Assembly (NCBI GenBank): GCA_024220505.1
Contig: JAKZZE010000016.1
Coordinates: forward strand, 992,001-1,056,000
Length of the DNA stretch: 64,000 nucleotides
Source of the DNA: Rhizopus arrhizus
Lineage: Eukaryota > Mucoromycota > Mucoromycetes > Mucorales > Rhizopodaceae
Direction of reading: 5' to 3'
Shown here piece by piece: positions 2,408-64,000 of the stretch (position 1 is its first letter; each line of letters begins with the position of its first letter). Under the pieces are notes generated by a model. It was not told where the DNA came from. It saw nothing but the letters and a program-made list of their open reading frames with translations, and did no database searches. The translations under genes and the position numbers were made by a program.

Positions 2408-2604
2408 AAATAAAACATCAAATCAAGAAATCAAATCAAGAAATTAATACGAGGGGCAAAATTGAAAAACTACAACGAAATCACATCAATAAATCAAATT
2501 AAATCAAGAAACAATCCAAGAATATATTCACACCAAATCAAATCAAAAACAATCAGAAGACACTCAAAATAGAATCAACAATTTCAAAACACTTATTATC
2601 GACA

Positions 2605-7022: not shown

Positions 7023-7122
7023 ACACTAAAAGCCGCAGCAATATGATTGCCACCTGAAACACACATTTATTTTATAAAACTACATGGAGGCAGGGAGGGG
7101 TAGTTGAAACAACACAAAACAC

Positions 7123-7168
7123 AAAAAAAAAAAAAAAAAAAAAACTACAATGAAAAAAAAAAAAAAAA
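7123..7168 (+). other. Poly(A) leader in front of the integrase ORF
   Basis: A 22-base A run ends six bases before ATG 7150, and another long A run follows the ATG, encoding a lysine tract. A purine-rich tract (GGAGGCAGGGAGGGG) lies just upstream near 7085-7100. The placement between two retroelement ORFs suggests a role in translation of the downstream ORF or simply slippage-prone expansion. Confidence 0.5.
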
Positions 7169-8589
7169 AAATCTTACCTGAAACTCATAAAACCACAATA
7201 CAACCAAATCAAGCAAATTTACCGAGCACAAGAATTACAAAAATGGAAGAACAAAAAATGAACTTATTAAAGCAATACCTGCATGATCTGAGGATTCCAG
7301 ATAACATATCTGATAAAATGGTGCGATATCTTAAAAACGAATCAAGCAACTTTACTATATACAAAGGCACACTATATCGATACAACACCTCAAACGGTAT
7401 CATTCGCAAAGTATTAAATAAAGAAGAAGCTCAAAGTATAATACACACTTATCACCAACATCCTTTGGGAGGACATCTTGCTTACAACAACACTCTACAC
7501 AAGATTTCCACACGATATTATTGGGAAAAAATGACTCGTGACATACAACAATACGTTAAAAAATGCCCAAGATGTCAAGTTCATGGATGCAAAACTCTTA
7601 ACGAAGAATTGTATCCAGTACCAATATCAACAAAGCCATTTGACAGAATAGCACTAGATGTTAAACATGTTCAGTCATCAAGAACTGGATATCGATATAT
7701 AATCGTTGGTATCGATTATTTAACGAAATATGTAGAAGCTCGAGCTATACGTTTTCAATCATCATCTGAAATTGCCCTGTTTTTATACGAAGAAATTATT
7801 TGCCGACATGGATGTCCAACTATCATCGTATCAGACAATGGAAAACCTTTTTTAAGCGACTTGGTACGACAAGTTTGCCGCAGTTATTCAATAATACACA
7901 AGACAACAACTCCATATAATCCACAAAGTAATGGACTCATAGAACGATTTAATCGAACATTAGGCCAAATACTCCAAAGACGAAGTGATGATGAAAAGAA
8001 AGACTGGGATCAATATCTACCAGCAACATTATTCGCATATAGATCAATGAAACAGGCTACAACAAAACAAAGTCCATTCTGCTTAATGTACGGGTATGAG
8101 CCTAGAACACCCTTCGATATGGAACATCAGATCTATGAAAAGAAATCTCCAAAGTTTGAAGCAGCTTTGTTTCATCGAACCGCTCATCAGTTGCACAATC
8201 TTAATCGAATTAGGGAACAAGCAGCTAAGGCCATTAAAGCAACACAGGCAGTACAGAAAAAGGCTATTGAAAACAAACTTCTAGATCAACGAAAAGAATT
8301 GAAACCTGCTTTCAATCTAGGAGATATTGTATTGATATACAAAGATTACTTATCAACATCTTGGTCTGGAAAGCTTCAAGACAAATGGGAGGGACCGTAC
8401 ATTATACACCAAATCCTAGGAAAAGGCACATACCATGTTAAAAACATCAACGTACAAGATACCAAAATTAGAAGGGTACACGGTAATCGTTTGAAACCAT
8501 ATTCTTTCCCAGACGTACAATGGAAATCGGAACACGAAAGGGTTATCTCAACCACAATAGATGATGAAACAAGAGACTTACTTCAATAA
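7150..8589 (+). CDS. Integrase of the gypsy element (separate ORF)
   Basis: The 479-residue product opens with a Lys run and carries a complete retroviral-type integrase. The HHCC zinc domain is near residues 95-150 (HQHPLGGH...CPRCQVHG). The D,D-35-E catalytic core starts near 165 (DRIALDVKHVQ), with the second Asp in IIVSDNGKPF and the Glu in NGLIERFNRTLGQ. A C-terminal module of GPY/F type (KWEGPYIIHQILGKGTYHV) lies near 420-450. No chromodomain is recognisable. The enzyme would insert the element DNA into the genome. It is in a different frame from pol and starts 127 nt after the pol stop, so expression needs reinitiation, internal initiation, splicing or a second frameshift; none is proven. 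Confidence 0.92.
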   Translation: MKKKKKKILPETHKTTIQPNQANLPSTRITKMEEQKMNLLKQYLHDLRIPDNISDKMVRYLKNESSNFTIYKGTLYRYNTSNGIIRKVLNKEEAQSIIHTYHQHPLGGHLAYNNTLHKISTRYYWEKMTRDIQQYVKKCPRCQVHGCKTLNEELYPVPISTKPFDRIALDVKHVQSSRTGYRYIIVGIDYLTKYVEARAIRFQSSSEIALFLYEEIICRHGCPTIIVSDNGKPFLSDLVRQVCRSYSIIHKTTTPYNPQSNGLIERFNRTLGQILQRRSDDEKKDWDQYLPATLFAYRSMKQATTKQSPFCLMYGYEPRTPFDMEHQIYEKKSPKFEAALFHRTAHQLHNLNRIREQAAKAIKATQAVQKKAIENKLLDQRKELKPAFNLGDIVLIYKDYLSTSWSGKLQDKWEGPYIIHQILGKGTYHVKNINVQDTKIRRVHGNRLKPYSFPDVQWKSEHERVISTTIDDETRDLLQ

Positions 8590-45433: not shown

Positions 45434-45764
45434 CACTGCAAATAATCGTGCAAACTCTGCACACTGTTAATTTTTAGCAATATGCTTTTCTGTTTAACGA
45501 TGCCAAAAGCTGTGATTGAATGGGTATTTATGCCGACGTCAATATCGGCACCCTTTAAGGACCTAAATGTCTGTCAATATATTCTGCGTCTCTGTATGGT
45601 GCCGATATTAACGAAAATGATGATCCATAGCTCTAAGTAGATTTATACAGACCCAATTGTCGTTCTGCGAAGGCGTCTCTCTTGTTAGCTGCTTTACATA
45701 GTCTATTCTACGTTATAAATAATTTGGCAACCAATGATACTTTTTAAATCATTACTTTATTTGT

Positions 45765-45905
45765 CTTTTTACTCTTTATAAACCACTCATATTGCCTTAT
45801 ATACTTCTTTATGAACCACTCATATTGCCTTATATATTTCTTTATAAACCACTTATATTGCTTTATATACTTCTTTATCGACCATTCATATTGCAATAAA
45901 TATTG
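45765..45905 (+). repeat. Subterminal tandem repeats of the CACTA element
   Basis: Three to four imperfect copies of a roughly 37-bp unit (ACCACTCATATTGCCTTATA followed by a CTTCTTTATRAA tract). The short copy at 56280-56395 has one unit fewer. Subterminal repeats of this kind are where CACTA transposon-encoded proteins usually bind. Confidence 0.75.
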
Positions 45906-46261
45906 CTTTATATATACAAAAAAATAGGGATTTTGTTTATAAAAAATAGCTTTTTTTTATTTGAATAAAATAATAATAACAATACATAGTATTTCTTTGC
46001 TTGTAGCATTTTAGCAGTGTGCTTGACTTACCTAATGTCACCAGAATAGCAGCATCTAATCTAAAAATACATCAACTAGTCTCGTGGAACTCAAAAAGTT
46101 CTCAAAAGAAAAAAAAAAAAAAAGCCAAGCTCAAGGATTCAAAGACACAAGGACTCAAAGGCACAAGGACCTGGGTAATTAAAGCAAAAGAAGGAAATAC
46201 ATCAGTACTTAAGAACCAAAGTAAAAGCCAGGAAAGAAACAGAAAGAGGCCAAAGCAGAGC

Positions 46262-46625
46262 AACATTCATCTACAATAGATGTTAAATATCGTGTATATA
46301 TAATAAAAGCAATAGTACCTTTCTTTAGATAGACCATGGGAAAAAAACTAGCTAAGCGTATACTCACAAGTACAAAAAGCAGCAGACATCTATAATAATT
46401 ATTAGCTATGAAGGATATGTAATAAAAGTAATAGTACCTTTCTTTAGATGGGCTAAGAGAAAAACCTTGCTAAGCTTTACCAACAAGTAAAAAAAAAGGA
46501 AGCAGAACGCATCTATAATAAATATTAGTTATGGAGTATATAGTAAAAGTAATAGTACCTTGCTTTAGACGAACCACGAGATAAAAGAAGAAAAAAAGAC
46601 ACCAGCCAAGCTTATACCAACAAGT
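46262..46625 (+). repeat. Internal about 115-bp tandem repeats of the CACTA element
   Basis: Three to four imperfect repeats, each with CATCTATAATAATTATTAGC, a TAAAAGTAATAGTACCTT block, then an AGATGGGCTAAGAGAA-like segment and ACCAACAAGTAAAAA. Related copies are at about 56750-57120 in the short element. No coding potential. Confidence 0.7.
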
Positions 46626-47120
46626 AAAAGAAGAAGCAACTATAATCCTGGGAAAAAGACTTTATAAAGACAATTTAAACTATAAAGAAAGCAACCAACA
46701 CAACTTTACTAAAGTACAAGTACCATTAGAGCAATAATAGAGTATATATAATATTAAGAACTTACCTTTCAGAAAGGATTTTTTTTAAAAAAAAAAGGAA
46801 AAAAAAGAGGGAAAAAAAAGTACTTTTTTTATAGCTTCATTTTACAAGTGTTACAATTATTCAATATTAGTAAATTATAATAACCATGAAAGCTCGTTTC
46901 AACTGCATTTTTTAACATAGTTCAGCTATTAAAATATTCAAAAAGCTTGTTTATATATTGTTAGACTTATTCTTTATTTAAATTTAACATCTTCAACCCT
47001 AATAGTGTTTTTTTTTTCTTTTTTTTTTAAAAAAAAAAAGAGTACAAAATAAACTGAAGAATATAAAAACAATGTAGCACATTCTTCTTTTTTCTTCTTC
47101 TTTATACTTTATTTTAAAAA

Positions 47121-48400
47121 ATGTCTAGACGCGTCGCTACACCCATCAACGTTCCCAGCAATGCCCCAAAAAGGGCAAGAGTTTCTTCAAATATCGCTGG
47201 ATCATCATCCACTGTTGTTCCTTCTTTCTCTTCTCTTTTCCCTGCTCCTGCTCCTGTTCCCGCTCCTGCTCCTGTTCCCGCTTCTGCTCCTGTTCCCGTT
47301 TCTGCTCCTGTGGCCGCTCCTGTTGCAACATTTGGTAGCCATACTGGTGCAGAGGCTATTGGAGCAGCCTCTAGTTTCACACCAGAGATGATGGCTGCCC
47401 AAATGCAGTTTTTTGCTCAAATGTGGCAACAGCAACAGCAGCAGCAGCAGCAGCAGCAACATCCAGTTCAACAGCCACAGCAAGGGCAGCAGTATGTTTC
47501 TGTGGCTGAGATCAACAAGATCAAAAAGCAGTGTAGTGTAAGCTTAAAATTAAAGTATCAATTAGTAAATTCAATTTAATAACTTTATTTCTTAATTTTT
47601 TCACTTACATTATAGGATCACATAGCTGATCACTACCGTGAATACTTGGTTGGCCGTGGCATCAAGTTTGATACGCTCAAGTCCATCACCGACAAGGCCA
47701 ACAGAAAAGTAAAAAATCTGTTGCGCGATGAAGTCAGGAAGCACCAACGCTTCAATTGCCTGACTGATTCGCAGATATTCACCATGATTAGAAGTAAGTT
47801 CTATTACATGGTGGATAAGGCAAATGGGAAAGCTGTGGCGACACCAACGTCAGCCTGCCGCAGCCGCGTAAATGCAGTAAGTACTTGATATTCAAAACAT
47901 CATAATATAAAATGCCTATAATACTTACATCAATACTTTATGATAGAAACTCCTTAACAGGAGGATTACTTACAACGCCAACGCAGCAGCATACCACGCC
48001 CGGTTCCCATTTGCCGAAAAGATCTTGACGGTTGCTTGGACCTCTGATGAGGAGGATGGCCCAGAAGATGAATATGGCCGTACATTTATTGTCAAGCGGC
48101 CATCATTCAGAAGTGAAAGAGTAAGTATAACATATCAATAAACCTCTTTTTCTAATACACCTTAATTGCCTACAGGTAGTGGAATTCCACAAAGAGCTGC
48201 AGAAAGGGCACAAAGACTTGTTAAAGAAAAAGGGGGCTCCACCAGCTATTAGAAGAAGAATAGAAAATGTTGAGGTGGAGTTCCCTGATAAGCTCGACCA
48301 TGAGTATTACCCTTCCTGGGCTTTTTCTTCCCCTGCTCTTGGCTTTCCAACTTCTGTTTCTGGTTCTTCCTCCTTTGCCGCCGTCAACCCAATGCCATAG
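47121..48400 (+). CDS. CACTA accessory protein (possible second transposon protein)
   Basis: Four exons: 47121-47537, 47616-47876, 47947-48120 and 48176-48400 (1077 nt, 358 residues). All introns have GTAAG donors. The N-terminus is basic (MSRRVATP...PKRARV), followed by a Pro-Ala-Val repeat (about 38-72) and a glutamine run (about 110-120). The C-terminal two thirds are a compact, basic domain (DHYREYLVGRGIKFDTLKS, NRKVKNLLRDEVRKHQRF, YNANAAAYHARFPFAEKIL, FHKELQKGHKDLLKKKG) with no family I can name. Its place in the element, convergent with the transposase, recalls the second protein (DNA-binding TnpA-type) of plant CACTA elements; that role is inferred. Confidence 0.75.
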
Positions 48401-48588
48401 GCATCCACTTTTTTTTTTCCTTTCCTTTTTGTTCCTTGTTTTGTTGTCGTTTTTCAAATTGAATAAACATTTGTTAAAAAAAAAAAGCTAGTCTATTGAA
48501 TGATTCTTTAGTAAAATATGTAATAAAATAAAAATAATAATAATAATATCGATAGATAAATGAATGATTTAATGGTTTTGCGTATTTG

Positions 48589-51500
48589 TTACATATAAAT
48601 TTTTCTTGGAAGAGAGAGAGTGAGGATGTGGTTATCGATGTATGATTTGACAGCAGCAGGGTTATAAATTCGATGAATTGGAAGTATGCTAAGTCTTGAC
48701 ACTGGTTCATATTGATTCTTCCACACTTGGATGCCAGTACCATCGAAGGTGGGGAAATGCTGGGTCGCATGGCTGTACCAATTGACAAATGCAAAGTAAT
48801 GAGTCATATTGTTAAATGAATGTGTGAAAAGATATGATATTTGACCAATGCGCAGTTGATTGTCGACAATGGCCTGAATGAATGATGAAGGTGATGATGA
48901 AAAGGAATTGTTAATTGCTGGCTGATAAAGTTGTCCAAGCAAAGTGATATTTTTAAATGAATGTATAGTAGTATCGATGTATGTGTTAGTTGCATAGGTG
49001 TAGATATAATAGGCTTTTAAAGCTTCATAATGTTCATGGCATATAAGGTGTGTTTTTTTGTTGTATTTTAAAGGATAGGAGGTTGGTGGCAGAGGCTCAC
49101 TACCAGTAATCGTCGAATTGAATAAACTAGGCCCGTCTATGAAACGAGAGTAGTCAAATGGCGTTAAACCACTCTCATCACTCGTAACCTCGCCTATCTT
49201 TTCTATAGATTTCACTAATAGGAGCATGTCATTGTTGGTTGTGTTAATGAATGAATGTAATGAGTGTATGAGGTCTTGTGTATGAACATTTTGGATAAAC
49301 ATAATTGCATAGGTTGTTTCGAGGCCTGTCTTAAAATTAATGTTTATATTTTTTATGTTACCATTAAGGCGTTCGAAACCATAAAGCCAAAAGGCATAAG
49401 AAGGACCAAAGTCCAAAAAGCATTCCTTGAGATGCATATGCATGTGCATGTTTGGTGTTGCCATAGAGTTTCCATATAGTCGAACACAAGTCTTGCCAAA
49501 ATTTTTAAAGAGTGAATGGACTATGTCTATGTCTTCATTTGTAACAAGGGGCCCAGTGACCAATTTCACCGCTTCAACGTACAGCATCCAATTGTCAAAG
49601 TGCTCTCTTGCCAGTTTCTGTTTCAAGAGAAATGGCGACAGCACAACGCACCACGTTCTCCACTCGTCTGATTTCATGTTACTGAAACAACTTTCAATCT
49701 TGGCTTTTTTTTTTAAAAAAAAATAATTGTTAGCTTGAACATGAATTAAAGTTTTTTAAATTTGTTACATACATTGTCATGTTTTGACATGTCAATAAGA
49801 TACAGTCTTATCATTCTGGACTAAATCTTTACAAATGAGTTTGAATAAGAATAGAACCTGATAATTATCACTGCCCTAAACAGCCAAGTTTCACTTTCAT
49901 CTCAACAGTTGATTATTAACATCAGTCTATAAAATTTTTCTTATACATGTCAAATCATATCGGTCGTAACTATTTTTGTCATCTAATCTCAGGTCTTGCT
50001 CAACTAATATAAATAGCCTTGAAATCTTTCTTTAATAAAAGTATTCGACTTTAGAACTATTGTTCGGTCTCGTTAATTCTTCTTTATCTTATTTTTGAAT
50101 ACTTAAAACACTTCATACATCTAGATATCTTGCAGTATTGAGAAGGAATGATAACTGAGCTAGATTCATCAGCCATTGCCTTGAAATCATTTACAGTGAG
50201 CAAACCACGGCCTTCCCAAACTTCAATCATTCTTTTTGGTGTACCAAGAAACAAGTTGTGCATTGGATCCACAGCTGTCAATCTCACCACATCAAAATAA
50301 CAAAGTCTATGGAGCTCACTCCATTTACTCCCCGTGCTCGTCTGTAAGGCTCTTTGCTGAGTGATGTGAGTTGCATTCAGCCAGTCAAATGCTTCTTGTC
50401 TTTGTTGAATACTGTCCCTCATTATCCAGTGTTCATCATCAAAGTTGGAAAAATCAGGCTTGGATGAATTCACACCAGTACTGATTCTAGGAAAGACAGT
50501 TGAGCATTTGTTACAAGCCTTATGAGCTGACTGCCCCATAAACCCGGCTACTTTACGCGCTGCAGGTATGTCGCAATTGACTGACATTAAAGCAACACGA
50601 ACAAGCATACCATTTGGGCATTGATAGGTGGGTATAACCACACCATCGTACAGGACAATCAACTCATCCACCATTGGCCGCAAGAAGTTTTGAATTTGGT
50701 CATCCGTGGGCTCGCCAGGACCAGGAATCATACCAACAAGGATAACGTTGGAAGTCTTCATCCTTGAACTTCTAGGGAGATTGTTGATAGTGAGGTACAC
50801 ACCACCACAAGAATAGTGCATACCGTCACTAGGCTGAAACCAGTCCACATTCAACGACACCATCAACGACCTTTCTTTGTTGACAAATGGCTGAGCATTT
50901 GAGTCGGCAAGCTGACTCCAAACTCTACCATCATAGATGTCGTAAAGAACATCCTCTTCCACCGATCTACTTCTCCACTGCTCAATTTGGAACTCGAAGG
51001 CAGGACGAGCAAAAAACTTCTTCAACGTTTCCAAAATTGAGTTGTAAGGGTACTCAAGAGCAGGCTTGACGGTGCTTCCAACAAAAAGAGGATTACCACA
51101 TGGTTGTTCTTGGCGGTGAGGGTTGTTTGCAAACCTGACATAAGAGCATTGTCGGGCATGCAAACTTCCCGTGGTGTAAACGCTTCTGCAAAGGGAACAG
51201 ACAAGAAAACGAGAAACACCACTGCTGGCAGACGAGTAGTTGACCATGACACGAGCCGTGGAGATCTTTGTAGGAATCTCCATGTCATGGCCAAGAGCAC
51301 GAACAAAGAAAGAGAGAAAGGCCAACAATTCTTCACCAGCTTGTACAGAGAGGTACTTTGCTTGAAAAAGAACCACGTAGAGCACCAAAAGATGCTTGAG
51401 CTGTTCTTCGTGGCTCAATTCCTCCTCTCCATCAACATTCATGTGGTCTAACAAATTGTAAAATACAGTTCAATAAATAAATCCTTTCTAATGTAAAATG

Positions 51501-51795
51501 CTTTGTCGACTGAAAATATACCTTCAAAGGTGGTATGCTCACTTTCGTTTTCAGGGACGGCTGTTGGTTGTTGCATGACTTCGGCTACTTGTCTTCTGGA
51601 CTCTATTTTTTTTTTTTTTTTACATTAACACGAGTGCGTTTATACGAAAAAATAAAAACTATAACCTCTTCCTCTGAATCTGTCCAGACGCTTATGAGTA
51701 AGAACAGTTCTCTTTGCAAGTCTTCTAAATCCACCGGGATGCATGCTGCATTCGGTACAAGTGCAAGCGATTTTAATGTTATTGATGTTGTTCAT
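48589..51795 (-). CDS. CACTA-like transposase (Transposase_21/Tnp2-like)
   Basis: Four exons: 51795-51666, 51602-51522, 51447-50119 and 49703-48589; they total 2655 nt and encode 884 residues in one frame. The N-terminus has a Cys cluster (CTCTECSMHPGGF), typical of the zinc-finger head of these proteins. Then come SLCRSVY with CS...CGNPLF (second Cys cluster), SLNVDWFQPSDG, GMIPGPGEPTDDQIQNFLRPMVDELI, AHKACNKCSTVFPR, and DPMHNLFLGTPKRMIEVW, a hallmark of the Tnp2-like family. Exon 4 continues with CFLDFGPSYAFWLYGFERLNG, another hallmark. It would excise and insert the element. Intron 3 (50118-49704) holds a solo LTR; without it the intron is about 70 nt with a GTATGT donor and CTAAC branch site. 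Confidence 0.85.
49775..50115 (+). repeat. Solo LTR family D inside a transposase intron
   Basis: 341 bp with TG...CA ends (TGTCATGTTTTGACATG to ACACTTCA), flanked by TACAT at 49770-49774 and 50116-50120. It has TATA (CTAATATAAATAGCC near 50010) and AATAAAAG near 50033. It lies at the donor end of the third transposase intron. Confidence 0.85.
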
Positions 51796-53102
51796 TTTGA
51801 AGAATTTAGTATTTTGTAAAGAAATAAAGAAGGAAAAAAAAAATGCGCCTGATAAAAAACGAGTAGTAAATTTGCAAAAACAGTCGGTGCTTAAACAATG
51901 AAATAAGGCAGTAAAACAACTTCTTTTTTTTTCCCTTGTTTTGTTTCATGGAATACTCTAGATGCCAAAGGCACAAAACAAAAAAAAGGAAAGCTCAAGC
52001 ACTGGTCAAATGTAAGCTTATAAAAAAGTAATAACAACCAAGTCTAATGTCGGTTTCTTTTTTTTTTTTTACATTAGGAATTCCTAATGGGACACATTCG
52101 GATGACGAACATGAGCCACATGAGCAAAGTTGTTCGTTTTAACACGATAAAACTATAATAATATCAAACTTATATTACTGCTTGTTGTTGAAAAGCCCTT
52201 TTTGATAAAGGAAGTTGGCAATGTTAACATCTCTAATGGCTAATGGCTAATTGCAAATTACACCCATCTGCAAACATAAAGTAAGTAATGAACTAATATA
52301 AGCTTAAAAACATACATTCTTTTATATTATTTGTCATAAAAAAATAATAAAGCAATCTATTTACTTGAAAAACAAAAAACTGTGCTTGTATCTATTAATT
52401 ATAATTGCCTTGTAACAAGATGTTAACAAAGCTTCTTTTTTTTTTATTCTTTTTAGAATATACACGTATTCTTTTGTTATAATGTAAAAGCATTTGTATT
52501 TTTATAAAACATGTTTACTGTTAGGTTATTGTTTTCATTTGAATAAGTAACATTTTATTGCTATGCTCTTTTTTTTTTTTTTCCACTAGGTCTTTTTTTT
52601 TTAACTTTGTCTTTTTTTTTTTACTTTTAATTTTTCAGCTTCTTTTTTTTTTCCCAAACGCAACTATTTTGTTACATTCTGTTACACGTTTCTAATGAGC
52701 TAAGCTAAAAAGCACAGACTGCCTTCCTAATATGTATTCTTCTGATCAAAATAATCGCAGAATGCTTTTGATTTCCGCATTTTGCCCTCAAAAATAAAAA
52801 AAAAGAAGATATCGGTCTTTCAACGATAGAGGAGAACAAGCTTTCCAAAAAAAGATCATCTGTAAAAAAAAAGACATTTTTTTTAAAACGTGAATAACTT
52901 TATGAATATTTACCCTACAATGAAAAAAATAACATTACTTAATTTCTTTATTTTTTTCGCATCTAAATCTTTTTTCATATTTCGAAAATGACCAATACAG
53001 CAAGATATAATGTTTTTTTAAAAAAAAACTTTAAAATCTGTGGACCTATGATTGTCACCGATATCAGAATTCTACGTCAAAGGCGCAACATTATTTGCAG
53101 TG

Positions 53103-53151
53103 AAAGGACACTCAACCAATATGGTAGCGCCTTAACCACTACGACAAACAC
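53103..53151 (-). repeat. SINE head fragment next to the full CACTA copy
   Basis: The 49 bases outside the right terminus match 58694-58742 with about five differences, and include the box A-like segment (minus strand TCGTAGTGGTTAAGGCGC). The match stops exactly where the SINE 5' end is inferred in the other copy (GACAAACAC). No SINE body adjoins the left terminus at 45433. Confidence 0.65.
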
Positions 53152-53334
53152 TGTGAATTACGCGGTAGTTTAGACTATGAAAGTGAAGGACTTGCGGGTA
53201 GTTAAGAAATAAGGAAAACCGTTAACCAAGAAGCCGGTAAGTGTTCGTTTGTTAGATTTTAGGAATACCAAAGAAAACAGCAGTTCACCAGAGAAAATAA
53301 CCCTGTCTATCCAGACAGAAAACCAAAGACAAAA

Positions 53335-54924: not shown

Positions 54925-55440
54925 ATAGGTCGATTTTTCGATATCTTTATTTCATAACAAATTATTAGTCTTTATATACTTTTGCAAGCGCATAAAGTAT
55001 TAACAGAGGATGAGTAAAAAAATAAAATAAAAACATGTCAGAACATTGACGAGGGTAACTGAGGATAAGAAAGGAAAATAAAAAAGAACATCAGACAAGA
55101 GAAACATCCAACGGAAGAAAGTAAAGGAACAAAAATATGATCTGAGCAAATGTCATCGGAAGAAGCACACAATACATCGAACCACCCAGCTAAACCTAGA
55201 ACCTAACCGACAAAAAAGGAAAGTGCACCCCAACTGTATATGGCCATCAATTCACTTGAGCTCCGCCAGCAAGTTGCGCGTCACCTGATCAACTCCGGGG
55301 TTCTCCTTCAGCTGGTGTCAACCATAGCCGCTTCCCACTATAAACTTCTCAGCCAATCATATTTCCCAAAGAGCTTCGCTTAAACATGTCCCCGAACCGA
55401 GTTGAGTTTATCGCCCACGATTACCAGTCACCTGTCAACA
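54925..55440 (-). repeat. LTR-like sequence 2, ending 9 bp upstream of the tRNA-Asp 5' end
   Basis: On the minus strand it begins TGTTGACAGGTGACTGG at 55440 and has GATAAACTCAA close by. Near its far end it has a TATA-like AGTATATAAAGAC and AATAAAGATATCG. The first base lies 9 bp before the first tRNA-Asp nucleotide (55449). It shares start and layout with 53335-53945. Confidence 0.4.
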
Positions 55441-55447
55441 CCACACC

Positions 55448-55463
55448 TTCTTCGGTAGTATAG
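55448..55463 (+). repeat. tRNA-Asp 5' fragment: left target duplication of the SINE
   Basis: TTCTTCGGTAGTATAG is identical to the first bases of the intact gene at 63771-63786. With the seven bases before it (CCACACC) it forms a 23-bp repeat of 58743-58765, the duplication flanking the SINE. Confidence 0.85.
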
Positions 55464-58400
55464 ACGAAACTTTTTATTTTTTATTGGTCATATATGCAGG
55501 CGACATATGTGTCATTAATTGCTTGACCACAGAACGAACTGGGAAAGCATACAAACTGTAATGGGGGAAGGGAAGGGAGGGTAAGCAGGGCAATTATTTG
55601 GCTGAAGCGACAGACGAAGACTTGGGACAGAGAGAGAGAGACATGCTTCATTAAGCCCGAGGTGGGCATCCTTGCAACGCTGATAATGCTGCTCACCAAA
55701 CAGCACACAACGCAGACCGACCAGAACAGCAGCGGCGTCAAAACCCAGGGAGGAAAGAGAGAACAGAAAGGGATGCCAACGGGGACACCGAAAGGGAGGG
55801 AAGGTGGACCAGATACCCAGCTGGCACGCAACGCAACACACAGGCGGGACACACCGAAAGCCAGAGACGACGCACGTTAAGGAAGTCATGTGACCGTGCG
55901 TGGAAGAGACGGTGCGAGGAAGGCAGGATTCGAACCTGCATGTCCAGACACTGCAAATAATCGTGCAAACTCTGCACATTGTTAATTTTTAGCAATATGC
56001 TTTTCTGTTTAACGATGCCAAAAGCTGTGATTGAATGGGTATTTATGCCGACGTCAATATCGGCACCCTTTAAGGACCTAAATGTCTGTCAATATATTCT
56101 GCGTCTCTGTATGGTGCCGATATTAACGAAAATGATGATCCATAGCTCTAGGTAGATTTATACAGACCCAATTGTCGCTCTGCGAAGGCGTCTCTCTTGT
56201 TAGCTGCTTTACATAGTCTATTCTACGTTATAAATAATTTGGCAACCAATGATACTTTTTAAATCATTACTTTATTTGTCTTTTTGCTCTTTATAAACCA
56301 CTCATATTGCCTTATATACTTCTTTATGAACCACTTATATTGCTTTATATACTTCTTTACCGACCATTCATATTGCAATAAATATTGCTTTATATATACA
56401 AAAAAATAGGGATTTTGTTTATAAAAAATAGCTTTTTTTTTTATTTAAATAAAATAATAATAACAATACATAGTATTTCTTTGCTTGTAGCATTTTAACA
56501 GTGTGCTTGACTTACCTAATGTCACCAGAATAGCAGCATCTAATCTAAAAATACATCAATTAATCTCGTCGAACTTTAAAAGTTCTCAAAAGAAAAAAAA
56601 AAAAAAAAAAAAAAAAAGCAAGCCCAAGGATTCTAGGATTCAAAGACAAAAGGACCAGGGCACTTAAAGGAAAAGATGGAAGTACATCAGTACTTAAGAA
56701 CCAAAGTAAAAACCAGGAAAGAAACAGAAAGAGGCCAAAGCAGAGCAGCATTCATCTATAATAATTATTAGCCATCATGTATATAGTAAAAGTAATTGTA
56801 CCTTTCTTTACATAGACAAGGGGAAGAAAACTTGCTGAGCTTTTACAAATAAGTAAAAAAAGAAACAGCACGCATCTATAATAATTATTAGCTATGATGG
56901 ATATGTAATAAAAGTAATAGTACCTTTAGATGGGCTAAGAGAAGAAAACTAGCTAAGTTTTACCAAGAAGTAAAAAAAAAAGGAAACAGTACGCATCTAT
57001 AATAAATATTAGCTATTGAGTGTATGTAGTAAAAGTAATAGTACCTTGCTTTAGATGGACCATGAAAAAAAAAAGGAAAAGAAAAAGACATCAGTCAAGC
57101 TTATACCAACAAGGAAAAGAAGAAGCAATGATAATCCTGGGAAAAAGACTTTATAAAGACCATTTAAAACATCAAGAAAGCAATCAATACAATATTACTA
57201 AAGTACAAGTACAATTAGAACAGGAATACAATTTATATAATATTAAGAACTTACCTTTTATAAAAAAGAGAAGAAAAAAAAAAAAAAAAAAAAAAAAAAG
57301 AGAGAAGTGCTTTTTTGTAGCCTTATTTTACCAATGTTACACTTATTCACTGTCTATCTATATTAGAAATCAAAAACAGTTGCTTTTCATATAGTCTGTA
57401 TTTAATGGTATCCCAAAAGATAATTTATACATTGCTTGAACAAGTTTTATTACTTGCGTGCAATATCTTTAACATGGAGGATATTATTTTTTCTTTTCTT
57501 TTTTTTTTTTTTTTTTTCTCCCTTGTTTTGTTTCATGGAATACACTAAATGTCAAAGGTACAAAAGATAAAATAGAATGCTCAAGTATTGATCATATGTA
57601 AGTTTATAAAAAAAAATAATAACAACCAAGTCTAATGTCGGGTTCTTTTTTTTTTTTTTTTTTTACATTAGGAATTCCTAATGGGACACATTCGGATGAC
57701 GAACATGAACCTCATGAGCAAAGTTGTTCTTTCCAACACGATAAAACTATAAGAATGTCAAACTTATATTACTGCTTGTTGTTGAAAAGTTTTTTTTGGT
57801 AAAGGAAGTTGGCAATGTTAACATCTCTAATGGCTAATGGCTAATGGCAAATTACACCCATGTGCAAACATAAAGTAAGTAATGAACTAGTATAAGCTTA
57901 AAAACATATATTCTTTTATATTATTTGTCATAAAAAAAATAATAAAGCACTTTATTTACTTGAAAAACAAAAAAAAACTGTGCATGTATCTATTAATTAT
58001 AACTGCCTTGTAACAAGATGTTAACAAAGCCTCTTTTTTTTTATTCTTTTTAGAATATACACATAATCTTTTGTTACAATGTAAAAGCATTTGTATTTTT
58101 ATAAAACATGTTTACTGTTAGGTTATTGTTTTCATTTGAATAAGTAACATTTTATTGCTATGCCCTTTTTTTTTTTTCACTAGGTCTTTTTTTTTAACTT
58201 TGTCTTTTTTTTTTTACTTTTAATTTTTCAGCTTCTTTTTTTTTCCCAAACGCAACTATTTTGTTACATTCTGTTACACGTTTCTAATGAGCTAAGCTAA
58301 AAAGCACAGACTGCCTTCCTAATATGTATTCTTCTGATCAAAATAATCGCATGGTGCTTTTGATTTCCGCATTTTGCCCTCAAAAATAAAAAAAAGAAGA

Positions 58401-58742
58401 TATCGGTCTTTCAACGATAGAGGAGAACAAGCTTTCCAAAAAAAGATCATCTGTAAAAAAAAAAGTCATTTTTTTAAAACGTGAATAACTTTATGAATAT
58501 TTACCTTACAATGAAAAAAATAACATTACTTAATTTCTTTATTTTTTTCGCATCTAAATCTTTTTTCATATTTCGAAAATGACCAATACAGCAAGATATA
58601 ATGTTTTTTTAAAAAAAAACTTTAAAATCTGTGGACCTATGACTGTCACCGATATCAGAATTCTACGTCAAAGGTGCAACATTATTTGCAGTGAGAGGAC
58701 ACTCAACCCATACGGTAGCGTATTAACCACTACGACAAACAC
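55464..58742 (-). mobile_element. SINE-like element with tRNA-like head, interrupted by a CACTA copy
   Basis: Without the CACTA insert it is about 530 bp. Its 5' end (minus strand) at 58742 begins GTGTTTGTCGTAGTGG and holds box A-like TCGTAGTGGTTAATACGC. After the insert comes GGACATGCAGG and a perfect box B, GGTTCGAATCC. A GC-rich body of about 400 bp follows, with no conserved ORF, and the 3' end is AATAAAAAATAAAAAGTTTCGT. The LINE next door also ends in ATAAAAA plus TTCGT. A 23-bp duplication (55441-55463, 58743-58765) taken from the tRNA-Asp gene and its 5' flank bounds it. Such elements are made by Pol III and moved by a partner LINE. Confidence 0.72.
55949..58693 (-). mobile_element. 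Internally deleted CACTA-like element
   Basis: 2745 bp with the same terminal repeats as the full copy and a 3-bp duplication AGA (55946-55948, 58694-58696). The left 1.35 kb matches 45434-46870 and the right 1.2 kb matches 51930-53102. The central 5 kb with both genes is missing, so it depends on the full element for movement. It lies in the tRNA-like head of the SINE. Confidence 0.9.
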
Positions 58743-58749
58743 CCACACC

Positions 58750-58765
58750 TTCTTCGGTAGTATAG
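58750..58765 (+). repeat. tRNA-Asp 5' fragment: LINE target duplication (left)
   Basis: TTCTTCGGTAGTATAG, identical to 63771-63786. It marks the 3' end of the LINE and is also the right-hand duplication of the SINE. Confidence 0.9.
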
Positions 58766-59029
58766 ACGAAGATTTTTATTAATATATATTAGGAGTATAT
58801 TGACAAGCGATAAATATCATGATAGTCATACTCAAGAAACAAAAAAGAAGAGACAAGAATCAAAAAACACTCGCAGAGCACACAAGAGCGAAAAAAAGGA
58901 AAGAGAAAAGGCCAATGGAAGCGCTAACTACTGAGCAACTCGTCAACACCATGGTCTCCTCCGCATCGTGCACTAAAATGGTTTGGCAGTGGGAGGTAGA
59001 AGCCAGAGGGTGGATCAGAGCGCTTGTCA

Positions 59030-62000
59030 TTATGGAACAGCAGCAGCAGAGGACTTGTCAATCCAGACTTGACCTGGAGCAGAAGACGAGTTGTACTCGA
59101 TGTCAGGATGACAGATCTTGTCAAAGTGACAGAGGATCTGACAAAGAGCGGACCAGAAAGGCGGACACCGAGCAGAAGCAGAGACAGGAAGCAAGTTCAA
59201 GACATAATCTATGTGGTGACCCACATAGTCAGGCGGTGGAACAGGCAGACAGCACCAGAGAGCAGAAGGAACCAAGGTACAGACCATGAGATGGGAACGA
59301 GAAGTATCGCCAAGACCACAGGAACAGGGAGCAGGCTTGCCTGGGATCCAACCCATGCGCCATCTAATAAGACGAGACCGGTCAGCACGGGAGGCAGGCA
59401 AGTACAGGATGGGATCCACCCGGAGAACAGGACGACAAGCGCGGATCAGAACCTGAGGGGTGGACTGTAAGAAGCTATGGAATTGGTCTTGACGATACCT
59501 TCGCAGCCAAGAAGCAAGAAGAGAAGATGAAGAGACATCCGAAGGGCAATCAAGGACGATACGCCGCTTACGGAGTCGAGACAGGAGAGACACTGGCACA
59601 GACTGAGACAGCAAAGACAAGAGACAATCATCGGGTAGACCTTCAGAGCGACGACAGAACTTGAGCACCAGGGTGTCAGCACGAAAAGACATTGACGGTA
59701 GATTGGCAATGTGCCGAAGTACTACAGTTGAGGCGGTCCTATGACCACCGACAAGCATCCTTAGACATCGGTCTTGGGCACGATTGAGTTCGTCATAGTC
59801 CTTTCTTGTAAGCTGAGCTATGGCAAGACCATACTCAAGCTTAGGACGTATGAACGCAGCGAACAGACGAGAAGAGAGAAGCAGAGTAAATCCTTGACGG
59901 TTGAGCCCCATCGAGTGTAGCTGAGCCATGGCAGCAAGAGTACCAGACGCGCGATGCTTGATCATAGCAGGGACTGAAATACCCTTACCATCAAAAGGTA
60001 CACCAAGGTAAGTGAACTCCTCAACAGAGGGAAGGTCTTGATCATATAGCGACATTTGAACATATCGACTTGATGTAGTAGTGGGTGCATTTAAGACAGC
60101 ACACTTTGGTGGACTCCACTTGTAACCAAGAGTCAAGGAGTGGATCTGCACTAGGTCCAGCATATGCCGAACTTCGCTAGCAGACCCAACCAGCGCCACA
60201 TCATCCGCATACAACAGACTGTTGATGGGTGTGGGCGTAGGAGACGAGGAAGACAAAGCAGCAGTACCAACCAAAGGACCAAAGGGAAGACCATCAGCGA
60301 CCAGAGCACCAGGACCAGGAGGACCAGAAGGAGACACCGATAACACCGAGGTGGTTGTTGCAGAGGCAGCAGAACGAAGCAGAGCTGGCAATGTGTTGAC
60401 ATAGATAGAGTACAGGTGAGGACTCAAGACAGAGCCCTGAAGGACACCTGTACTCGGCACAAACGGATCAGAGACATTGTTCTGCAACAACACAGACACC
60501 GAGACATCATCAAACATGTTGGCCAACAAGGACACCAAGGACAGAGGAGCAGAAGAGGCGAGCATCGATTGCCATATGATACGACGATCGACTGTATCAT
60601 AGGCTGACTTGATGTCCAGGAAAGCGACCACAGGATAATGATTGTGTCGGCGTCGGTAAGAGTGCATCAGATCATGGAGACAGAGAGCTTGATCCAATGC
60701 ACTACGCTGGTGACGGAAACCACCTTGAACTACATCGAGCGGAGGAGAGACATCTTCAACAAAGGGAAAGAGACACATCTCAAAGAGCTTGCGGACGATG
60801 GAGGTCAAGGAGATTGGACGATAGTTCCCTGGCGAGGTAGGATCACCCTTTTTGTGGATGGGGACCACCTGAGCTTGACGCCAGAGAGAAGGGGTATACG
60901 ACCACTGGTAGCAGATACTGAAAAGCAAAGAGAGCAGTGGGGCCAGAACAGACTTGATGGGGAGGAACATCTCCGTACGCAAGTGGTCAGGACCAGGAGC
61001 CTTACGCAGAGGGAGACGTCGCATCAGTGAACCCACACTGTCAGCAGAGAACGAGGGCATACCAGGGTCTTGACTATCGAGGTCAAAAGGCACCATACCA
61101 GAGACAGAGGGCAGAGGGTCAGGACGCCTTGACGGAAGACCGTCACCAGAGTAGACCGAGGCAAGGTGTTGACGCATCGCGTTCGCACCTGCAGCAGGGC
61201 CGTCAGGATGAGTAAACCCAACCTGTTGACGTCGTCGGTTCCGAATCACCTTCACCTTCGACATCGCACGAGCAAGTTCGCCACGGGCCAGAGAGTCACA
61301 GAAAGCACGCCAAGAGAGACGTTTGGCAGACTTGAGAGCAGAGCGGAACCGGGCTTGAGCGACCTGATGTCGATCCCACCACAAGGCCTTGTCGATGCCA
61401 ATGGCTCGACGCCATTTGCGGTAGTGGTGTTCACGAACATCGGCGAGTTCTTGCAAGTGCGCATTCCAGAATGGCTTCCATTGGGAAGGTCGAGAAGAGC
61501 GAGAGCCAACCGACTTGTCGAGTGCACTATAGATCGCCTCATTCAGAGTGTCATTGAGAGCGTCTATAGGCGGAGCAGCAGAAGGAGGACTTGACTTCAG
61601 AGCTTTGAGCTGATCAACCAATGGAGAGACCAAGGACTGGAATGTGGCCACGTACAGACTACAGACATCGGGTTCCTTCAACCGAGAGAGGTTCCATAGC
61701 CGACGGGCAGAAGAAGAGAGAACGGGCTGCGATGGATAACCATCAGGGACTGCATAGTCAAAGGACAATGACAACAGTTTGTGGTCAGAGCCAAGAGAGA
61801 GATCACTGTAGACTTGCATCCGAGGGGACCGAAGGACAGAGGTCATGTTGGTCAAGAAGTAGTCGATCATACTTTGCTTGACTTGACCACCACGAAAGGA
61901 CAAGAAAGTAGGTACCCCAGGAGCGAGAGTCGAGTTCAGAACAGAGAGACCATGTTCTTCACACCAGCGAAGCAGCACCGAACCTCGAGTATTGGCAACG

Positions 62001-62590
62001 GAATCACCCGTTAGTGCACCAAGACGCGCGTTCAGATCACCACAGATGATCGTATCGTCTGTCAAGGGCAACGAAACCAACACAGAAGAGACCTCGTCGT
62101 TGGACAAGGAAGGGGGCAAATACAGGCAGATGAGACGCAAGGAGCGACCCAACCGCAGACCCAGAGCATACTTGGTATGAACCGGGAACTGTACCACAGC
62201 CATCGGACACCGAGGAGACACCAGGGCAGAGACACCTTGAGAGCCACGATAGCTGTTGATCACAGGAGAGCCATACAGGTTGAACTGGGTCCAAGAAGTA
62301 CGGATCCTGTGAGGCGGAAGCAACCAGGTTTCAGTGATAAACACCAGAGAGAACGACTGGCAGTGACGGAGGAGATCCTCGGCTGTGGATTCTTGAAGCC
62401 CATTGGCATTCCACAAGCCGATTGTGAGCGGAATAGAAGAAGTTGATGACGATGACGAAGGAGAGGATGGACCATGGGAGCCATGAAAACCAGAGGAAAC
62501 CAAAGGAGAGGAAGGAGTTGACAGATCTGGGACCATACCAGATGTAGAGACCAAGGATGCACTATAATGACAAGTATTACTACTCATCAT
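59030..62590 (-). CDS. LINE ORF2: AP-type endonuclease and reverse transcriptase
   Basis: 1186 residues starting MMSSNTCHYSASL. The exonuclease-endonuclease-phosphatase domain lies at about 55-280 (TIGLWNANGLQES, FITETWLL, IICGDLNARLG, and GSDHKLLSLS with the catalytic DH). The reverse transcriptase lies at about 530-830: IHKKGDPTSPGNYRPISLTSIVRKLFE, VAFLDIKSAYDTVDR, GVLQGSVLSPHLYSIYVN, and the catalytic YADD in LLYADDVALVG. The C-terminus has a Cys/His cluster (CSCGLGDTSRSHLMVC). No RNase H domain is seen. The enzyme nicks DNA and copies the element RNA at the break (target-primed reverse transcription). The endonuclease domain is presumably what recognises the tRNA gene. ORF2 begins inside the ORF1 stop. 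Confidence 0.95.
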   Translation of the reverse strand: MMSSNTCHYSASLVSTSGMVPDLSTPSSPLVSSGFHGSHGPSSPSSSSSTSSIPLTIGLWNANGLQESTAEDLLRHCQSFSLVFITETWLLPPHRIRTSWTQFNLYGSPVINSYRGSQGVSALVSPRCPMAVVQFPVHTKYALGLRLGRSLRLICLYLPPSLSNDEVSSVLVSLPLTDDTIICGDLNARLGALTGDSVANTRGSVLLRWCEEHGLSVLNSTLAPGVPTFLSFRGGQVKQSMIDYFLTNMTSVLRSPRMQVYSDLSLGSDHKLLSLSFDYAVPDGYPSQPVLSSSARRLWNLSRLKEPDVCSLYVATFQSLVSPLVDQLKALKSSPPSAAPPIDALNDTLNEAIYSALDKSVGSRSSRPSQWKPFWNAHLQELADVREHHYRKWRRAIGIDKALWWDRHQVAQARFRSALKSAKRLSWRAFCDSLARGELARAMSKVKVIRNRRRQQVGFTHPDGPAAGANAMRQHLASVYSGDGLPSRRPDPLPSVSGMVPFDLDSQDPGMPSFSADSVGSLMRRLPLRKAPGPDHLRTEMFLPIKSVLAPLLSLLFSICYQWSYTPSLWRQAQVVPIHKKGDPTSPGNYRPISLTSIVRKLFEMCLFPFVEDVSPPLDVVQGGFRHQRSALDQALCLHDLMHSYRRRHNHYPVVAFLDIKSAYDTVDRRIIWQSMLASSAPLSLVSLLANMFDDVSVSVLLQNNVSDPFVPSTGVLQGSVLSPHLYSIYVNTLPALLRSAASATTTSVLSVSPSGPPGPGALVADGLPFGPLVGTAALSSSSPTPTPINSLLYADDVALVGSASEVRHMLDLVQIHSLTLGYKWSPPKCAVLNAPTTTSSRYVQMSLYDQDLPSVEEFTYLGVPFDGKGISVPAMIKHRASGTLAAMAQLHSMGLNRQGFTLLLSSRLFAAFIRPKLEYGLAIAQLTRKDYDELNRAQDRCLRMLVGGHRTASTVVLRHIANLPSMSFRADTLVLKFCRRSEGLPDDCLLSLLSQSVPVSLLSRLRKRRIVLDCPSDVSSSSLLASWLRRYRQDQFHSFLQSTPQVLIRACRPVLRVDPILYLPASRADRSRLIRWRMGWIPGKPAPCSCGLGDTSRSHLMVCTLVPSALWCCLPVPPPDYVGHHIDYVLNLLPVSASARCPPFWSALCQILCHFDKICHPDIEYNSSSAPGQVWIDKSSAAAVP

Positions 62591-63597
62591 TATAATGATC
62601 CAAAGCTAGAGCGAGAGGCAGGACGGTGATGCTCATAGTCATCAAGAGCCATATCTTCAGCCATGTCATCGTAGTGGCGGACAGTCTTGGGTCTATCTTC
62701 CTTAGCAGACAGAACTTCGGATACTGTCTCATCAGAGACAAGGGCTTGCGCCAACAGGTAGCGAGAGACAGAGACAGCAACAGGATAGCGCAAGCGCTCT
62801 AAAGCCTTACGGGAACGATCGTCGTTGATGAGCGAGATGGCATGGCTACGCTCCTCAGCAGAAACAGAATCAAACTTGGGATCGGTAAGGTTGTCAGGAT
62901 CAAGTGGATCGAAGGTGTCCAAGGTAGGGATCTTGGCCTTTTCCAACAAGGAGAGAAGAGCAGGCTTGTACTGCAGATGTACTAGCAGACCGACAACAGA
63001 GTGAGCAGGATAGCACACATCCAAGATGCGCCAGCTATCCACACCAAGACGAGAGAGACGACGACGAGCTTCGGTGTAGGTCATCCTACGAGAGCGAGGT
63101 ATGTAGACATACTCAAAGCCTTGTTCACCAGACACAGGCTGGAAACCACGAGCAGCGGCAGCACGACGACGGAGTTTGTTCTTTGCAGAACGAGAAACAA
63201 CAGTGGCCCAAGAAGAGGCAGCAGTACCCAAGGAGGGCGAAGGAACGGACGCTTTAGCACCAGTAGGAGCAGCAGGAGAAGAGACGGCGGCAGTTGAACT
63301 TGGGGTGCTTGTAGGGACCCCGGCAGATTGTGCGGCCAGTTGGGCCCGCAAGGAAGCAATCTCATTGGCTTGAGACTGATTTGTTTCGGCAAGGCGAGCG
63401 TTCTCACCTCGCAAAGTTTCGAGCTCTAGCTTGAGCTGCTCTAAGGCAGAGAGACGAGCAGTGACAGCTTCTAGTGCGTGACTGAGACTTTGGACTGTGA
63501 CTTCGTGGTCGGACGAACTGGGTCCAGCGGCGGCATTCAGGATTTTAGATCCTCTAGTATTTCTTGTTGAAGACATTTGGATGCAAACTTTGAGCAA
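62590..63597 (-). CDS. LINE ORF1: coiled-coil nucleic-acid-binding protein
   Basis: 335 residues from the first Met, or 328 from the better-looking MSSTRNTRGSK at 63576. Residues about 40-95 form a coiled coil with heptad Leu (LSHALEAVTARLSALEQLKLELETLR...). An Ala/Ser/Pro-rich linker follows (about 95-135), then a basic patch (SAKNKLRRRAAAARG) and a folded C-terminal half (about 165-300: YIPRSRRMTYTEARRRLSRLGVDSWRILDVCYP, SVVGLLVHLQYKPALLSLLEKAKI). No zinc knuckle is present. LINE ORF1 proteins coat the RNA and assist target priming. The stop TAA shares its last A with the ORF2 start ATG. Confidence 0.88.
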   Translation of the reverse strand: MLKVCIQMSSTRNTRGSKILNAAAGPSSSDHEVTVQSLSHALEAVTARLSALEQLKLELETLRGENARLAETNQSQANEIASLRAQLAAQSAGVPTSTPSSTAAVSSPAAPTGAKASVPSPSLGTAASSWATVVSRSAKNKLRRRAAAARGFQPVSGEQGFEYVYIPRSRRMTYTEARRRLSRLGVDSWRILDVCYPAHSVVGLLVHLQYKPALLSLLEKAKIPTLDTFDPLDPDNLTDPKFDSVSAEERSHAISLINDDRSRKALERLRYPVAVSVSRYLLAQALVSDETVSEVLSAKEDRPKTVRHYDDMAEDMALDDYEHHRPASRSSFGSL

Positions 63598-63770
63598 CGA
63601 TTAAGCAACAAGTAATGTAGATATCAAAATAAGAGTTGGACCAAATAAAAGTATAGATCAAAAGGAGTCGATTGATGTAAAAATTGTTGATGGATGGATA
63701 GATTTGACAGAGATATCGGCTTTCCAAAAAAGAGTCAAGTTTACCTTTTTAACCAAAAGCGAAAGAAAAG

Positions 63771-63786
63771 TTCTTCGGTAGTATAG
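63771..63786 (+). repeat. LINE target duplication, right copy
   Basis: TTCTTCGGTAGTATAG covering the first 15 nucleotides of the intact tRNA-Asp gene and one base before it. Identical to 58750-58765. Confidence 0.9.
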
Positions 63787-63843
63787 TGGTGAGTATCCCC
63801 GCCTGTCACGCGGGAGACCGGGGTTCAATTCCCCGCCGGAGAG
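63772..63843 (+). tRNA. tRNA-Asp (anticodon GTC)
   Basis: 72 nt without an intron. The acceptor TCTTCGG pairs with CCGGAGA with one G-U; discriminator G. The D-arm is in GTATAGTGGTGAGTAT, the anticodon loop is CTGTCAC with GTC between CCGCC-type and GGCGG-type stems, and the T-arm is CCGGGGTTCAATTCCCCG. The gene is complete although a LINE starts one base upstream, because the target duplication rebuilds its 5' end. Confidence 0.96.
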
Positions 63844-64000
63844 TAATCCCCACGATCGTGGTAAATCATTACATCTTTTGATTCTACTTTTGGTATGTTT
63901 GTCATGCTAATGTAACACTGTGACGAAAATAGAAATTTTTTCAATCAAACTGTACCACTTGACGAAGAAAGTTCGGACCTGTGTAGCTATGATTATGAAG
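63844..64000 (+). other. 3' flank of tRNA-Asp
   Basis: A TTTT tract 30 bases after the tRNA (ACATCTTTTGATT near 63872) is a likely Pol III terminator. Nothing else is seen to the end of the window. Confidence 0.5.

Follow-up and report, generated by a model that had tools for sequence, protein, structure and literature searches.

Insertion of a complete LINE into a tRNA-Asp gene

The window, a stretch of 64,000 nucleotides from Rhizopus arrhizus, contains a complete tRNA-Asp(GTC) gene on the plus strand at 63772..63843 (Rfam, 60.2 bits), which ARAGORN places at 63771-63844. Adjoining its 5' end, on the minus strand and antisense to the gene, lies a complete two-ORF element of 5007 bp (5.0 kb; 58765..63771), here called LINE-A, whose 3' end reads ...TTCGTC at 58765 and whose 5' end is ACTTTTCTTTCGC at 63771. 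Both of its minus-strand reading frames are open. ORF1 (62593..63573) encodes 327 aa from its Met, and a Pfam search with it returned nothing over the family cut-off. ORF2 (59033..62590) encodes 1186 aa, with an N-terminal APE-type endonuclease followed by a reverse transcriptase (RT); the Pfam families matched are PF14529, PF03372 and PF00078, with the APE domains at residues 60-272, and the RT matches solved R2 and LINE-1 ORF2 relatives at E values of 1e-17 to 1e-8. A Cys/His cluster at the C-terminus was read by eye only, and no RNase H family was matched in Pfam up to E 0.1. With two ORFs, the second of which combines APE and RT, the element is an APE-type non-LTR retrotransposon (LINE), and its fixed 3' end at the target, variable 5' end and target-site duplication fit this class as well. 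One 5'-truncated copy (L116) stands at a His gene, its likeness to the window LINE having been read by eye.

The start of the tRNA-Asp gene is repeated on either side of LINE-A, as the initial annotation had recognized in describing a two-ORF LINE that splits this gene and leaves it rebuilt through duplication. The 16-mer TTCTTCGGTAGTATAG is found at 55448-55463, 58750-58765 and 63771-63786, and it occurs 24 times in the 50.26 Mb genome, while the reversed control occurs 0 times. The repeat is thus real where it had been reported, but the duplication is of 14 nt rather than 16, and entry, correctly placed inside the tRNA near its 5' end, is after nt 14 rather than about nt 15. A 16-bp duplication was rejected, as its final base belongs to the element: nt 15 is A in each of the five Gly-TCC genes read, but each of the eight Gly-TCC tags next to a LINE-A 3' end is followed by G, which is accordingly taken for the terminal base of the LINE itself. 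The duplicated unit, TCTTCGGTAGTATA, is tRNA-Asp nt 1-14 and lies on the plus strand in three copies. The right copy (63772-63785) forms nt 1-14 of the rebuilt gene, the middle copy (58751..58764) separates LINE-A from the next element, and the outermost (55449..55462) is taken to be the gene's 5' end as it stood before insertion.

That next element (55463..58750, minus strand) had been taken for a second LINE at the same target; this was rejected, because it is a non-autonomous SINE-like element of about 540 bp, SINE-A, with a tRNA-like head and the same cut site, carrying an insertion of 2.7 kb. Compared with a clean copy, its two parts show identities of 97.6% and 96.4%, and the interrupting CACTG...CAGTG element (55949..58693) has CACTGCAAATAAT inverted termini with AGA on both sides. 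Farther out, an LTR-like end (GATTACCAGTCACCTGTCA; 55419..55437, plus strand) precedes the outermost tRNA tag by 11 bp.

Distribution of LINE-A over the genome

Among 52 listed LINE-A-type 3' ends (47 tabulated rows and five read separately), 51 lie directly after tRNA nt 14, each antisense to the gene. The tags belong to Pro-AGG (22), Ala-TGC (8), Gly-TCC (8) and Asp (7), and more rarely to His (2), Val-AAC (2), Val-TAC (1) and Gly-GCC (1). Specificity for a position is therefore upheld, while specificity for tRNA-Asp is rejected: the initial annotation had predicted CTATACTACCGAAGAA after most 3' ends, but tRNA-Asp accounts for 7 of the 52, and the position is common to at least eight tRNA kinds. 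Full-length copies at unrelated targets, which had been named as evidence that would speak against specificity, were sought, and a single end of the 52, L092 (C26:42111), lacks an evident tRNA gene; its site is TAGTTTA^G, and only 30 bp match the window LINE within the 5.5 kb taken. Genome copy counts are lower bounds, the best 40 of 59 and the best 39 of 1225 candidates having been scored, and ORF2 is full length and stop-free in 34 of the 40 genome matches listed.

The 3' ends of L029 and L083 were missed by the search pattern, and tags are present in both. Eleven stretches taken for LINE ends, in which the scan found no canonical end, were BLAST-searched; several of their LINEs are interrupted near one end by other elements, and nothing was obtained from L057, L072, L074 and L084. 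An exact 18-mer search for the GGTCCCGTGGCGTA tag found nothing, and the gene of this tag is a Val-TAC with a longer D loop.

Rebuilt genes have been re-entered by elements, giving arrays that are separated by tRNA tags and mix LINE-A, SINE-A and SINE-B. It could be supposed that segmental duplication or faulty assembly produced such arrays from a few insertions, since neighbouring copies are 96-100% identical and long repeats are difficult to assemble. This explanation is very improbable, as LINE-A occupies eight tRNA kinds, the arrays are of mixed composition, and the 5' junction extras and unique flanks vary between copies; duplication alone was rejected as the source of the arrays on account of this mixing of elements and tags.

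Two further lineages and the SINEs

Two more LINE lineages, LINE-B and LINE-C, with ORF2 40-43% identical, also cut at nt 14/15. LINE-B is bordered at either end by nt 1-14 in Lys-TTT, Met and Phe genes, and the copies L202, L203 and L204 carry the tag as well; for LINE-C, GGTCCTATAGTGTA flanks both sides at Gln-TTG. LINE-B shows T after A14, where its genes have G15, and the Gln-TTG genes have A15, yet their tags are followed by G. The nick is placed after A14 because, at Gly-TCC, Gln-TTG and the LINE-B genes alike, the base following the tag differs from nt 15 of the gene.

The putative SINEs measure 508-549 bp and have heads that resemble a tRNA; they use the same insertion site as the LINEs, and their last nucleotides are common with LINE-A or LINE-B. 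Box-A- and box-B-like motifs were seen by eye in an alignment of the heads, for which Rfam gave zero tRNA matches up to E 1. SINE-B, with a 3' end resembling that of LINE-B, is found at Pro-AGG and Gly-GCC genes, which argues against a strict partition of tRNA genes between lineages.

Occupancy of intact tRNA genes and the LTR-like ruler

A canonical LINE or SINE 5' end lies at nt 1, or at most 14 nt away, in 40 of 110 distinct gene contexts, counted with identical-flank genes merged and 5'-truncated insertions (such as L105, L116 and L120) scored as none. Occupied intact genes include Pro-AGG (7/7), Ala-TGC (3/3) and Asp (8/12), and some genes that bear the motif are without a canonical insertion, namely Glu-CTC (0/3), Arg-TCG (0/2) and Arg-CCT (0/2). 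The target motif proposed for LINE-A is TRGYNWA^RT, and that at LINE-B genes would be TRGCTCA^G. In an Rfam-derived sample, 59 genes read out of 63 tRNA matches from 2878 first-look candidates, LINE-A or SINE-A adjoins 4 of 15 motif genes against 0 of 44 others (p=0.003, with the motif defined afterwards). LINE-B was found at 7 of the 44 non-motif genes and none of the 15 motif genes, a difference that is not significant (p=0.17).

LTR-like elements provide a ruler. At 19 intact genes they end 8-12 bp short of nt 1, and at six split half-genes the gap is 9-11 bp; the LTR stems were picked after inspection of the sequences, and distances over 25 bp were discarded. Since the spacing is kept, the half-genes at those six loci are read as the original gene starts. 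This bears on the possibility that insertion takes place immediately before nt 1 and that the 14-nt tag comes from LINE RNA or gene conversion rather than from a split gene. Extras of at least 2 nt occur at 8 of 49 LINE-A 5' junctions, and only some of them read as tRNA pieces; in L060, at a Pro gene, the extra is GCGTTCTT, which equals Gly-TCC nt 1-8, and in L085, at an Ala tag, it is GGCTTC, equal to Pro nt 1-6. These two extras point to the donor's tRNA tag, pieces of which could accordingly travel with the element, as upstream insertion would have it. However, the LTR-like ends hold their usual distance to the outer tag at the six loci, and tags agree with the complete gene at the far end of the array in examples from ten tRNAs (Pro, Ala, Gly, Val, His, Asp, Lys, Met, Phe and Gln), so that insertion upstream of the gene is very improbable.

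What directs the elements to this position is a separate matter. A LINE protein might bind TFIIIB or TFIIIC and the endonuclease cut whatever DNA is presented, with the letters of box A playing a minor part. TRE5 ORF1 binds TFIIIB in Dictyostelium, according to the available portion of one report (PMC5911963), and LTR-like elements of the same Rhizopus genome likewise stand 8-12 bp ahead of tRNA genes. Moreover, one LINE-B copy (L124/L205), with the duplication TCAGAGCATCCA, lies just upstream of a Gly-GCC gene at a cut, CCA^A, that has no box A motif, and box A letters are thus not the whole explanation. Nevertheless, targeting mainly through the Pol III machinery appears unlikely, because the cut is constant to the nucleotide in nearly all LINE-A-type ends, the LINE lineages occupy different tRNA genes, and L092 retains its motif-like site off any evident tRNA gene. 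Pol III recruitment and the reading of DNA sequence can be combined.

Proposed mechanism

The positions, duplications, orientation, arrays and several tRNA kinds are read directly in the DNA, and they argue strongly for target-primed insertion by an APE-type LINE family at tRNA box A, with a 14-bp stagger and rebuilding of the gene. On the tRNA-sense strand, the ORF2 endonuclease would open the bond joining nt 14 to nt 15, early in box A, and the nt 14 end so released would serve as primer for copying the LINE RNA into DNA, beginning at the RNA's 3' end, which would explain why the element is antisense to the tRNA. A cut of the opposite strand at nt 1 would create the 14-nt stagger, and its fill-in would duplicate nt 1-14, leaving a defunct half-gene beside the 3' end of the LINE and restoring at the LINE 5' end a whole, presumably working gene, internal promoter included. 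If the rebuilt gene were hit again, head-to-tail arrays with 14-nt tags between the elements would result. The LINE RNA probably begins a few nucleotides upstream, within the donor's tRNA tag, and this donor stretch may help to bring the end of the cDNA into register with the new gene. The LINE machinery would also be borrowed by SINEs whose 3' ends resemble those of the LINEs. LINEs could apparently in this way pile up at essential tRNA genes without breaking them.

Relation to known elements

LINEs in or beside tRNA genes are already known. NeSL-1_TV (tRNA-Pro), LIN15_SM (tRNA-Arg) and LIN25_SM (tRNA-Glu) are tRNA-gene-specific non-LTR retrotransposons, grouped in the excerpts available with NeSL-related restriction-like-endonuclease (RLE) elements, one tRNA each (Kojima and Jurka 2015, PMC4640811). 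By that description, LINE-A is set apart as APE-type and present at eight tRNA kinds, and its APE domains speak against the RLE type, which has a restriction-like endonuclease after the RT and no APE. Dictyostelium TRE5 and TRE3, as far as the portions at hand describe them, are also two-ORF LINEs with an APE domain and linked to tRNA genes, but they insert at a distance, about 50 bp away on the upstream side or about 100 bp on the downstream side (PMC5006619, PMC5911963), whereas the Rhizopus elements are inside the gene, exact to the nucleotide. In D. purpureum, NLTR-A is described in part of the former source as ending 2-6 bp upstream of the mature tRNA (PMC5006619), a position that resembles the appearance of a rebuilt gene; it has an RNase H domain, for which LINE-A ORF2 gave no match. 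Several lineages of Dada target tRNA nt 8-13, in box A, in different tRNA genes (PMC8869645, in the part available), but these are DNA transposons with 6-bp duplications and without gene rebuilding by a 14-nt duplication. The literature searched yielded no APE-type LINE family that enters genes of many tRNA kinds and whose lineages use different ones.

ORF2 matches are from R. delemar for LINE-A (95%) and LINE-B (86%) and from R. arrhizus for LINE-C (99%). Relatives in Mucor velutinosus and M. saturninus are among the 120 of 212 proteins listed, 56 of which entered a tree together with the three LINEs; relatives sought in viral contigs were not found. Grem-LINE1 of Mucor, described as L1-like, with ORF1 and ORF2, and pericentric, is like LINE-A a two-ORF mucoralean LINE, a comparison by description only, and the word tRNA is absent from the text of the paper describing it (PMC7377519).

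Possible implications for LINE evolution in Mucoromycota

Taken jointly, and with a likelihood somewhat short of even, box A targeting may be ancestral in a large Mucoromycota LINE clade whose lineages split by tRNA set and whose tails were copied by SINEs; relatives in Mucor (perhaps Grem-LINE1), Umbelopsis, Phycomyces and Lichtheimia would then land likewise, and donor tRNA letters in the RNA would guide rebuilding. The genome holds two independent modes of tRNA targeting, by LINEs within the gene and by LTR-like elements about 10 bp upstream. The locus offers a natural example in which a LINE, in a single step, divides an essential gene and makes it whole again, at a short motif shared by multiple tRNAs, and it may explain LINE pile-ups at fungal tRNA genes. 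How an APE endonuclease gains and shifts site specificity is a long-standing question, which the many copies, the nucleotide-exact cut and the sister lineages' differing tRNA sets make directly testable.

Two insertions in one tRNA-Asp gene

LINE-A, a two-ORF APE-type LINE antisense to the tRNA-Asp gene, is complete (63771 to 58765, minus strand), its 5' end abutting nt 1 of a complete tRNA-Asp gene (63772-63843), and a copy of tRNA nt 1-14 (58751-58764) lies directly beyond its 3' end. Farther out, SINE-A (55463-58750), a short non-autonomous partner, occupies the same cut and is followed by the outermost copy of nt 1-14 (55449-55462). The gene was struck twice, apparently by the SINE first and by the LINE afterwards, because the only full site is that of the complete gene, which lies innermost.

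Other elements are also present in the window. Two have CACTGCAAATAAT inverted termini, the larger (45434-53102) containing an ORF with a Transposase_21 (tnp2) domain (50087-51469) and the smaller lying at 55949-58693. A SINE-A head at 53103-53173 occupies a site with no evident tRNA gene; its flank contains TAGTTTA^GAC (^ marks the cut), similar to the off-target copy L092, and the other half of this element is missing. ORFs at 2503-8589 resemble Ty3/gypsy gag, protease-RT-RNase H and integrase.

Target specificity and position of the cut

A LINE-A 3'-end pattern blind to the flank matched 52 places in the assembly (50.26 Mb, 41 contigs) and none in the control. Flanks were read at all 52, and in 51 the 14 nt preceding the junction were tRNA nt 1-14, here called the tag; the kinds, assigned with ARAGORN on complete genes, were Pro-AGG (22), Ala-TGC (8), Gly-TCC (8), Asp (7), His (2), Val-AAC (2), Val-TAC (1) and Gly-GCC (1). 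The sole exception, L092, reads GAGTAAATAGTTTA^G with no evident tRNA gene, and its element matches LINE-A over 30 bp only. The pattern is incomplete, and two of the ends it missed (L029, L083) both bear tags. At L003, L073, L078 and L095, other elements beginning TACAGT interrupt the TA-rich tail of the LINE 3' end.

The LINE/tRNA boundary is ambiguous at most targets, since nt 15 is G in most tRNA kinds and the last complementary base of LINE-A is G too. Gly-TCC genes have A15 (five genes), yet G follows the tag in 8/8 Gly-TCC tags at LINE-A ends; the sister lineage LINE-C shows the same A15-versus-G pattern at Gln-TTG, and LINE-B, another sister whose terminal base differs from that of LINE-A, has T after nt 14, versus G15 in its target genes. 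All three lineages thus indicate nicking after nt 14 and before nt 15, with the opposite strand cut at nt 1.

Of 49 distinct LINE-A 5' junctions, 30 carry no extra bases, 11 carry a single extra nucleotide and eight carry two or more. Two extras reproduce the exact 5' end of a different tRNA: Gly-TCC nt 1-8 in the case of L060, at a Pro gene, and Pro nt 1-6 in the case of L085, at an Ala tag. Phe nt 1-8 are repeated at a Phe copy of LINE-B (L179). We infer that the start of the LINE RNA can lie inside the donor's tRNA tag.

Rebuilt genes, arrays and the split half-gene

A complete gene adjoins 15 of these 49 junctions and the tag of a further element adjoins 34, the owners being LINE-A (24), SINE-A (6), SINE-B (3) and a LINE-A-like end with variant sequence (1); successive full-length ORF2 copies are often ~5.0 kb apart. 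Full-length, stop-free copies at 96-100% identity make up 34 of the 40 ORF2 matches listed, so that the family looks recent. A canonical LINE or SINE 5' end lies at nt 1 or ≤14 nt away in 40/110 distinct tRNA gene contexts read upstream, including Pro-AGG 7/7, Ala-TGC 3/3 and Asp 8/12; across 72 nt, a single sequence is shared by 11 of the 12 Asp genes found. The rebuilt genes probably work, because all Pro-AGG genes found are occupied, although the search used an exact pattern and variant genes missed by it could weaken this reading.

Whether the tag is a piece carried by the LINE or the original gene start can be judged from LTR-like ends (...TGTCA or ...TATCA). At 19 intact tRNA genes of several kinds these ends precede nt 1 by 8-12 bp; at six split half-genes, the window's outermost tag among them (11 bp), the distance is 9-11 bp. 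The stems were picked from earlier sequence prints and only distances ≤25 bp were retained. This conserved spacing speaks against a carried piece and identifies the split half as the original start of the tRNA gene.

These ends, which we infer to be LTRs, lie 8-12 bp upstream of many tRNA kinds (25 places, including L010, L013, L111, L125, L143 and L168), and are a second, Ty3-like mode of tRNA targeting beside the LINEs in one genome. In Rhizopus, Ty3/gypsy elements are reported to co-localise with tRNA genes (PMC2699053).

SINE partners and sister lineages

Ten between-tag elements of 508-549 bp share one common body, with box-A- and box-B-like motifs close to the 5' end; Rfam reports no tRNA in these heads, and the label 'tRNA-like' rests on the motifs. 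Their 3' ends are TTTCGTC, as in LINE-A, or CTTTAACC (compare LINE-B, CTTTAACA). SINE-B, with the LINE-B-like end, occurs at Pro-AGG and Gly-GCC genes, which argues against strict tail-target pairing.

LINE-B (ORF2 40% identical to LINE-A) is flanked on both sides by nt 1-14 at Lys-TTT, Met and Phe (L194, L195, L197), and three additional copies bear the tag; another copy (L124/L205) has a different duplication, just upstream of a Gly-GCC gene. LINE-C (42-43%) is flanked likewise at Gln-TTG (L199, L201), and its Val-AAC copy (L198) has no left tag within the stretch fetched. The outer flank of L202, where a LINE-B-like yet different 5' end (...GTGAGAGAAAAGCGAAAGAAAAGT) adjoins a Met tag, suggests that tRNA genes host a further LINE lineage.

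Among 59/63 Rfam tRNA genes, LINE-A or SINE-A adjoins 4/15 with the box A motif TRGYNWA versus 0/44 others (p=0.003, the motif being chosen after the fact), whereas LINE-B adjoins 7/44 non-motif genes versus 0/15 motif genes (p=0.17, not significant). On these figures, a partition of tRNA genes between lineages is suggestive.

Relatives and evolutionary implications

The open-access literature describes LINEs of the RLE type that are specific for tRNA genes, LINEs of the APE type next to such genes, and DNA transposons within box A. The open-access papers searched yielded no account of an APE-type LINE lying within a tRNA gene, nor of Mucoromycota LINEs that target these genes. Among the best 120 of 212 ORF2 protein relatives, all named ones are Mucoromycota (including Rhizopus, Mucor, Umbelopsis, Phycomyces, Lichtheimia, Cokeromyces and Parasitella), the best among the matches listed being from R. 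delemar (95% identical). A quick, midpoint-rooted tree with 59 rows puts LINE-A and LINE-B/C on opposite sides of the deepest drawn branch (SH-aLRT 80), and both sides include Mucor and other kin. If this split holds, tRNA targeting would predate the divergence of these genera.
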